Positions 24,753-27,603 of a stretch of 29,527 nucleotides of DNA are shown piece after piece. Each line of letters begins with the position of its first letter. The stretch's first letter is position 1. The notes below the pieces were generated by a model that saw only the letters and a program-made list of their open reading frames with translations, had not been told where the DNA came from and did no database searches. The stretch covers positions 1 through 29,527 of the IMG/VR virus record IMGVR_UViG_3300010430_000353; one strand, given 5' to 3'. The translations under genes were made by a program, and so were the position numbers. This DNA comes from a virus.

Positions 24753-24902
24753 TACTTAACGCCTCCGGCACTAAATGTTAGAACGAAGAAGGGATCGGAG
24801 CTATATATACTCATGGGCGGAGCTATGAGAAATACTTTAGCGGAGCTATACCTTCTCCGAACTCTCCTATTTTTGCGGAGAAAATAATTTGGTGTAATAC
24901 GT
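24753..24902 (-). promoter_or_regulatory. Late operon leader with three ATAGCTCCG repeats
   Basis: No gene is present. On the minus strand ATAGCTCCG occurs three times, at 24841-24849, 24818-24826 and 24796-24804, spaced 23 and 22 bases, about two helical turns. Upstream of them TTCTCCG and CGGAGAA form a 7-bp inverted repeat (24853-24882). This lies between the candidate -10 and the first late gene. Regular spacing suggests a bound protein, an RNA-binding array or a processing element. Confidence 0.45.
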
Positions 24903-24911
24903 ACTATAGCA
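24903..24911 (-). promoter_or_regulatory. Candidate leftward extended -10 promoter for the late operon
   Basis: The minus strand reads TGCTATAGT: an extended -10 (TGn) with TATAGT, five of six matches to TATAAT. No good -35 is visible; the spacer is a run of G tracts. Transcription would begin near 24896, about 144 bases before the first late gene. Confidence 0.4.
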
Positions 24912-25020
24912 ACACCCCCATTCCCCCCTTGCACCCCCTCACGCGCGTATGCGCACATACATGCGTAGCATAATCTCCTGGGTGTTGTCAATGGGTATTA
25001 CGCCATGATTGCATTGAATA

Positions 25021-25064
25021 GATACATATTTGTATCACTACGTGATTATTATCTAATGATATCA
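25021..25064. promoter_or_regulatory. Cluster of three palindromes in the divergent control region
   Basis: GATACA-TATT-TGTATC (25021-25036), ATCAC-TAC-GTGAT (25034-25046) and TGATATCA (25057-25064) follow each other in the gap between the leftward late genes and the rightward RNA/early genes. They look like operator sites. The stretches around them (24912-25020 and 25065-25173) show no gene; a TTGACA at 25108-25113 lacks a good -10. Confidence 0.4.
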
Positions 25065-25173
25065 ATGAGTTGATGGCCAGGTGGAGTATTCAAACGCTCC
25101 GCACCACTTGACATTGTGTTTGATTATTCTTATCCGCGCGTTGTGTGTTCTTATATCCATCACGATAGGATGT

Positions 25174-25182
25174 TGTTATACT
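25174..25182 (+). promoter_or_regulatory. Candidate rightward extended -10 promoter before the structured RNA
   Basis: TGTTATACT is an extended -10 with TATACT (five of six). Start would be near 25189, just before the small hairpin GGTAT-GGA-ATACC (25192-25204). No -35 match is visible. Confidence 0.4.
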
Positions 25183-25298
25183 ATCACATAGGGTATGGAA
25201 TACCTTACTTTTAATTGGTTTGGGTATATGTTGTTATGAATTCATCGAACGGCGCTACATCGCTAGGCCACTAGGTTGAAAGGTTCGGTAGGGGACTT

Positions 25299-25331
25299 GA
25301 TCTTGCCCCCGCCTTGTGCTTAAGTAAGGTT
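25299..25331 (+). repeat. Hairpin copy 1 with the CCGCCTTGTGCTTAA loop
   Basis: The stem is 25299-25306 with 25324-25331 (8 bp, three of them G-U). The loop region CCCGCCTTGTGCTTAAG (25308-25324) is identical over 17 bases to copy 2, while the stem sequence differs and still pairs. Confidence 0.75.
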
Positions 25332-25640
25332 CAGAGACGCAGGAAACGCAGACGTTAGATAGGAGTATCCTTAACCGGACTTGATCCCTGTCTATCAGAG
25401 CTTAGACTGCCATACGCTAGAAGTGCCTAGTCTCTACATATGACGCCGCTAACCCACAGCGTCTAACAAATAAGGGGTTGACAAGGTTGGCACCTCCTGA
25501 TAAGGTGTAAACAGTCAAGCACACTGCCCCACGGCAGGCATATTGACAATAAAAGTGGTCCCTTGAAAAGGGGTAGGTGTACCATAAGTAAACCATTCAC
25601 GCTTGGCACGACGTTTATATCGGCCACACTAAGGGTACTG

Positions 25641-25671
25641 ACCTAGCGCCCGCCTTGTGCTTAAGCTAGGT
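25641..25671 (+). repeat. Hairpin copy 2 with the CCGCCTTGTGCTTAA loop
   Basis: ACCTAGC (25641-25647) pairs perfectly with GCTAGGT (25665-25671). The loop carries the same 17 bases (25649-25665) as copy 1, 341 bases upstream. AAGCACA at 25517-25523, between the two copies, is exactly complementary to TGTGCTT in either loop and could form a pseudoknot. Confidence 0.8.
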
Positions 25672-26193
25672 TTGGAAATATATCCTCTAGGGGTAATACC
25701 CTAAGCGAGAGTTGGACTAGTAATAGGGAACAGCATTCCCGTGCTAACTGGCCAGGCTATGTGTGAGGGTCTGTGAATAGCTGCCGCCTTTAGGTGTCGT
25801 GTGTTCTTACTAGGTAAGCTCATACGTAAAAGAGACGGTGAAAGCAGGCTACGCAAGGCTAGTTAGTAATTGAAATATCCAGACTGTACGGCGATGTACA
25901 GGTAGTGAGGACGCGACCACGATAGGCGCGAAACAAGTGTGTGCGGGGCCAGGACCAGTTTGCCCTACGTCTGTAGAATGACGTCAATGGTTTGTGGTGT
26001 GATACCACTAACGGCTGACCTTTATTGCGATGCCGTGCAACCCAGCGGGTTCAACCCCGGTTGTGTGAGCTGGCGCTAGGCTATCCTAGTTGTCGCCCGA
26101 GATGTGTTAGCTCACTCAGCGTTGTGTTTGACTGTTTGCTAAGGCAAGCTGCCATTGATTGGCTGTTTACCTTAACAAACTATGGAGGATGCT

Positions 26194-26475: not shown

Positions 26476-27066
26476 ATGACACATCGTCTACATAACGTGG
26501 TGTATGCACGGCTTGATGCTGTTGCTGCCGCCGAAAAGATCACCCGTGTTGAGCTGGGCCATCTGTCCCGTGAGCTGCTTGAGTACGTGGTGGACACACA
26601 TGACATTGATATTGTCAACCGCCTCATCGGTGTGCTGACCCCTGTCAACAAGCGTGTCTCTATCCTGTACTTCACTCACTTCCTTCCGTGGACTGTGGAA
26701 AAGGACAGCGACGGCAAGTTCGTGCGATTCGGTAAGATGCTGGGCAAGCCTAAGCAGGTGAAGAAACGTGTTGAACTCATTGCCGCATTCCTGGTTAATG
26801 AGAACAATAACATCTGGTCGTGGTCCGATGAACACATCGAGGTTGAACAGAAGCAAATCAACCTGGGTGAGAAACTGGAAACTGCAATCGTCCAGGCTAT
26901 GCAGGGTGTGGACACTGACAAGCAGCACGGTGACGCCCTATCCAAAGCTGACATCCTCACCGTTGTCATGAAACATATCACCGGCGATGAGATGCTTGAT
27001 ATCATCACGTCTGTCGCTGATGAGGTCCAGGAACAGGTGGACGATGTGATGGATGAGGCTGCATAA
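26476..27066 (+). CDS. Conserved-looking early phage protein, unknown function
   Basis: This 196-residue soluble protein has an N-terminal half with helices (LDAVAAAEKITRVELGHLSR) and a Trp/Phe-rich core (ILYFTHFLPWTVEKDSDGKF, residues 84-103). It is followed by KMLGKPKQVKKRVELIAAFL, the acidic segment NIWSWSDEHIEVEQKQINLG and a long helical acidic tail (DEVQEQVDDVMDEA). AAAGGAG lies seven bases before the ATG. Codon choice here is more G+C-rich than in the late genes. The mix of basic middle and acidic tail would suit a nucleic-acid mimic or host-takeover protein, but that is a guess. Terminator follows. Confidence 0.75.
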   Translation: MTHRLHNVVYARLDAVAAAEKITRVELGHLSRELLEYVVDTHDIDIVNRLIGVLTPVNKRVSILYFTHFLPWTVEKDSDGKFVRFGKMLGKPKQVKKRVELIAAFLVNENNNIWSWSDEHIEVEQKQINLGEKLETAIVQAMQGVDTDKQHGDALSKADILTVVMKHITGDEMLDIITSVADEVQEQVDDVMDEAA

Positions 27067-27527: not shown

Positions 27528-27603
27528 ACCTCCTTGGTGAAACTGGATATCATACGAGATTTCTACTCTTGGGTTAGGGGTTCGAGTCCTCTAGGGGGTG
27601 CCA
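27528..27603 (+). tRNA. tRNA-Arg (anticodon TCT)
   Basis: This is a full cloverleaf of 76 bases with encoded CCA. The acceptor ACCTCCT/AGGGGGT has 7 bp with one G-U. The D-stem is GTGA/TCAT and the D-loop AACTGGATA has G18-G19 and A20. The anticodon stem CGAGA/TCTTG carries the loop TTTCTAC with anticodon TCT at 27562-27564. The variable loop is GGTT, the T-stem AGGGG/CCTCT has the loop TTCGAGT, and the discriminator is G. A20 and C35 are known arginine identity elements. It would help read AGA/AGG codons. It lies inside the split tRNA, back to back with the HNH gene. Confidence 0.93.

Follow-up and report, generated by a model that had tools for sequence, protein, structure and literature searches.

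Does a sequence repeated within an untranslated stretch of a phage genome mark an RNA element, and if so, what might that element do? The question is raised by a virus record of 29,527 nucleotides (IMG/VR IMGVR_UViG_3300010430_000353), which is possibly a fragment. We refer to this 29.5-kb stretch as the window. The window comes from a Zobellviridae-type podophage, whose large terminase shares 74% identity with the enzyme of Pseudomonas phage PA11 and 73% with that of Salinivibrio phage CW02. Between divergent packaging genes and early genes on the plus strand lies a region of 1.2 kb that lacks credible genes, and it is there that the repeat occurs.

Two copies of a stem-loop

The 17-mer CCCGCCTTGTGCTTAAG is found exactly at positions 25308-25324 and 25649-25665, as an initial sequence-only reading had reported. 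The window contains no further copy with three or fewer mismatches (0.03 are expected in shuffled sequences). Similarity between the two sites extends past the 17-mer, and can be described as 35 nt with six mismatches or as 42 nt at 83% identity. Copy 1 (25298-25334, plus strand) can form a stem of 25299-25306 with 25324-25331, enclosing a loop at 25307-25323. Copy 2 (25639-25675, plus strand) can form the corresponding stem of 25640-25647 with 25665-25672, enclosing a loop at 25648-25664. The copies are 341 nt apart.

In each copy, the flanks pair at eight of eight positions. The sequence-only reading had assigned 8 bp with G-U pairs to the first stem and 7 perfect base pairs to the second; pairing is confirmed in both, but copy 2 actually has eight pairs, of which seven are Watson-Crick and the outer one is G-U. 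Only five differences separate the copies in 33 columns, four of them in the stem. Both bases differ in one stem pair (U-A to A-U), a single base differs in each of two others (U-G to C-G and G-U to G-C), and the remaining five pairs are identical. When five random substitutions were introduced into either copy, with at least four falling in the stem, all eight pairs were retained in ~0.8 to 1.1% of trials. The earlier argument that covariation reveals selection on structure is therefore weakly supported, in that such an outcome would arise by chance in ~1% of cases. Selection may act on local pairing; as a basis for covariation, two copies are slender. The differences favor local stems, because cross-pairing of the two stems leaves a mismatch, by inspection, at the compensated pair.

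The loop proper is 17 nt long, and its first base differs between the copies (C or G). This revises the description of an identical 17-base loop ending in CTTAAG: the final G of the 17-mer closes the stem, so that CTTAAG does not lie wholly within the loop.

Energy calculations do not support both hairpins as favored folds. When hairpin 1 is forced, its region folds with -8.2 kcal/mol, whereas the local optimum reaches -14.6 kcal/mol. Under a nearest-neighbor model, the pairing probability of hairpin 1 is approximately zero in all contexts examined. Hairpin 2 is favored locally only, with a pairing probability of 0.98 that falls to ~0.1 in the whole leader. Two adjacent stem-loops are a possible fold for copy 1, and copy 2 is much poorer in that form. 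The fold of the whole leader is not unusually stable (z-scores of -0.2 to -1.75). No helix was found that joins the two copies, the longest after either landmark being 5 bp. A domain between the copies closed at long range by GUAUCCUUA and UAAGGGUAC was rejected, as it performed no better than mismatched controls.

The leader and its distribution

Both copies reside in an untranslated early leader at 24940-26181 (plus strand) that is presumably transcribed as one RNA. It is noncoding in relatives too, and is syntenic with an early gene at 26476-27066 (plus strand) that follows the leader in these phages. In relatives, ~0.5 to 2 kb of noncoding sequence precedes this same gene, beginning beyond a conserved element on the packaging-gene side. 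In the window, this element occupies 24871-24937, 370 nt from copy 1. It is ~67 nt long, reads AGAAAnnnnn..AATGCA.. and then becomes C-rich, and profile matches occur in 38 other loci. Because many contigs stop ~30 to 170 nt from it, the element is probably a genome terminus or packaging site; terminal repeats are known for some members of the family (PMC9960094).

Other features of this region are recorded here as observations. A long, near-perfect inverted repeat at 26135-26179 (plus strand) lies directly upstream of the Shine-Dalgarno sequence of the first early gene. Judged by sequence, it is a possible processing hairpin or RNase III site, and its match to an Rfam model is a chance one. 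Upstream of copy 1, TGTTATACT at 25174-25182 resembles an extended -10 element by eye; a promoter scan gave no sigma-70 match. A tRNA-Arg (TCT) gene is present in the early region at 27528-27603.

The stem-loop was not found beyond the window. DNA comparison with 50,697 phage records did not recover it, and the exact 17-mer has no match in IMG/VR. A 15-mer from the loop occurs there in seven unrelated places, none with the window's stems. A covariance model of the element, run over 57 sources that include the leaders of relatives, had no match outside the window. Similar-looking loops in four relatives' leaders (L033, L044, L045 and L058) were rejected because a looser scan for the loop gave equal counts on the sense and antisense strands. 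Searches with early proteins found no close relatives in IMG/VR, although the collections searched may omit records close to the window.

Homology to a part of this leader was found in a single phage, KZY1 (locus L085), from an oyster sample. It shares with the window two early genes and the 3' part of the leader, where 25728-26143 (plus strand) aligns with L085 1235-1701 (nhmmer E-value 9.4e-12). The hairpins are missing from KZY1. A consensus fold of the two leaders has a z-score of -1.65 for the sense strand and -2.7 for the antisense strand, so this pair provides no evidence of structure. As a separate observation, the L085 leader alone has a fold z-score of -4.9 over 709 nt, and at 1087-1230 it contains a long perfect helix of GCAUACUAUC with GACUAGUGUUG, accompanied by CAACACUAGUC with GGUAGUAUGC, around ~100 nt.

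boxA modules in related leaders

The leaders of many related phages contain a recognizable signal. Using the gamma-proteobacterial boxA consensus GYTCTTTAANA (PMC5725501), we found 30 canonical sites on the sense strand and none on the antisense strand of 39 leaders, with 0.11 expected under a first-order model. To delimit these leaders, either the terminus element or the early gene was used; the set includes partial leaders and phages that are related to one another. Seventeen leaders carry at least one boxA (L006, L014, L027, L028, L033, L044, L060, L062, L077, L082, L086-L089, L092, L093 and L096), and 11 carry at least two. Often there are two or three per leader, spaced 166 to 351 nt apart. 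Outside the extracted leaders, the consensus occurs twice on the plus strand and 11 times on the minus strand in the orientation of the loci, counts that may include unextracted leaders. In the open-license papers to which our literature search was confined, we found no description of boxA-bearing Zobellviridae leaders.

The sites are frequently followed by helices. In 13 of 22 boxA-to-boxA intervals, a helix of 9 bp or more without interruption (G-U pairs allowed) begins 0 to 3 nt after boxA. The same was true of 7% of mismatched pairs taken from different phages, and of 0 to 4 of the 22 intervals at offsets of 8 to 51; the offset controls are a little stricter, since they also leave out any helix that extends a preceding one. 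This anchored-helix test was designed after alignments of the same leaders had been seen, and it replaced a test of total duplex energy between consecutive boxA sites that gave a weak result. Because the helix sequences vary between phages, this amounts to covariation of whole modules. A strong boxB-like hairpin precedes 13 of 41 boxA sites (about a third), versus 13% of control positions, so it is not put forward as a general feature.

Additional similarities among these leaders were observed. TAATTACA is common to L033, L044, L077 and L087, where it precedes the third boxA, a few bases 5' of the 3' strand of the closing helix. A segment of 30 to 33 nt is 97 to 100% identical in otherwise diverged leaders (L064 800-832, L088 522-554, L089 188-220 and L028 408-437). 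Direct repeats resembling CCCAAGGAGCTTT occur several times in the L039 leader and fewer times in those of L045 and L058.

The relatives' leaders resemble rRNA operons in having the exact boxA consensus and then domain-closing helices (PMC10250234, PMC5725501). In rRNA operons, boxA is thought to be held near RNA polymerase while the leader strand awaits the trailer (PMC10250234). The window shares with rrn-type boxA, the NusB/S10 site in the leader and spacer of rRNA operons, the presence of repeated signals in a long untranslated RNA. The resemblance does not extend to sequence or architecture: the window leader has no boxA within two mismatches, the best site has three, and the repeat is no better than the rest of the leader. 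With a longest helix of 5 bp, the window also lacks a helix-closed domain right after the signal. The window thus has no counterpart of the relatives' modules. Both the 370 nt that separate copy 1 from the terminus element and the 341 nt between the copies are distances within the range of boxA sites in relatives, an agreement that is suggestive only.

Possible roles of the duplicated element

Our preferred explanation, offered tentatively and at somewhat less than even confidence, is that this lineage of Zobellviridae-type phage has duplicated a stem-loop within its long untranslated early leader RNA, and that the element acts in cis on transcription or processing. Each copy would display the same loop sequence on a stem that is free to vary in sequence, which resembles a site bound by a protein or by the transcription machinery. 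The nascent leader might then be recognized at two points 341 nt apart, and recognition would allow transcription or processing of the untranslated RNA to carry on into the early genes. The boxA sites of related phages probably act likewise. Formation of the stems within the cell is presumed, as is any link to antitermination. In favor of this explanation are the exact repeat with compensated stems, the syntenic noncoding position throughout the family, the boxA modules of relatives and the boxA-like distances. It is weakened by the disfavored fold of hairpin 1, the ordinary stability of the leader, the failure of the window to reproduce the relatives' modules and the lack of a homolog with a conserved loop.

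The weak fold of hairpin 1, the near identity of the two copies and the absence of the element from all relatives examined would suit a neutral, recent duplication of ~40 nt, with compensation that is partly luck. We consider this rather unlikely, because four of the five differences are in the stem, pairing is kept in all of them (~1% by chance) and one pair is altered on both sides. The G-U pairs bear on another reading, in which the copies are two inverted repeats with the same spacer that serve as a DNA site (an operator, origin or packaging site) for a phage or host protein near the terminus. An inverted repeat has the same appearance in DNA as in RNA, and the region adjoins the conserved terminus-like element. 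Of the three varying pairs, however, two include G-U, which is paired in RNA and does not fit duplex DNA symmetry, and relatives have no such repeat; a DNA-level role is accordingly improbable.

The loops could instead make contacts with each other or with the leader, at long range or between molecules, and so shape a large RNA. The UUAA of the palindrome does lie in the loop, UGUGCUU has a 7-nt complement at 25517-25523, and large oligomeric phage RNAs exist (PMC12286853). Nevertheless, we regard such a structural element as unlikely. The 7-nt complement is approximately at chance level (~0.7 expected, by estimate), and contact with 25517-25523 was dismissed on this ground. The loop is conserved in no homolog, and the G of CUUAAG closes the stem. 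Kissing through CTTAAG, as had been proposed, fares poorly on these points; moreover, the window contains 12 CTTAAG sites. Neither kissing nor multimer formation is supported. ROOL and GOLLD, in which self-complementary loops join chains (PMC12286853), resemble the leader in being large untranslated phage RNAs, but the window has no excess stability and no conserved loop, and these and other large-RNA Rfam families were undetected in it even at a permissive threshold; relatives gave no ROOL or GOLLD match either. Overall, apart from tRNAs and a group I intron in one relative, Rfam searches of the window and relatives at gathering and permissive thresholds returned nothing beyond chance matches.

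Another parallel to a cis-acting duplicated stem-loop might be sought in the put RNA of phage HK022, which also has two copies and functions in early phage transcripts (PMC9378689). put RNA binds the zinc-binding domain of the RNA polymerase beta' subunit. Compared by description, put is ~70 nt with two stem-loops, and its copies lie downstream of two different promoters, whereas the window element is 37 to 42 nt with one stem-loop, and both copies lie in one region. We therefore do not call the element a boxA, a nut site or a put RNA, and describe it as a lineage-specific duplicated stem-loop.

The element itself belongs to one lineage, and its surroundings are more general. In this phage family a long untranslated leader is retained, and boxA sites of the ribosomal type, with helices anchored to them, are often present in it. 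It is conceivable, if doubtful, that Zobellviridae make a large early untranslated RNA organized like a miniature rRNA operon, in which boxA sites alternate with helix-closed domains, and that this RNA either has its synthesis driven by host Nus factors or titrates them; the lineage of the window would have swapped boxA for its own duplicated RNA element in the same role. The boxA sites and anchored helices of these leaders would, if confirmed, represent the use of host rRNA antitermination machinery by lytic phages, in a family whose cultured members include Pseudomonas phage PA11 and Salinivibrio phage CW02.
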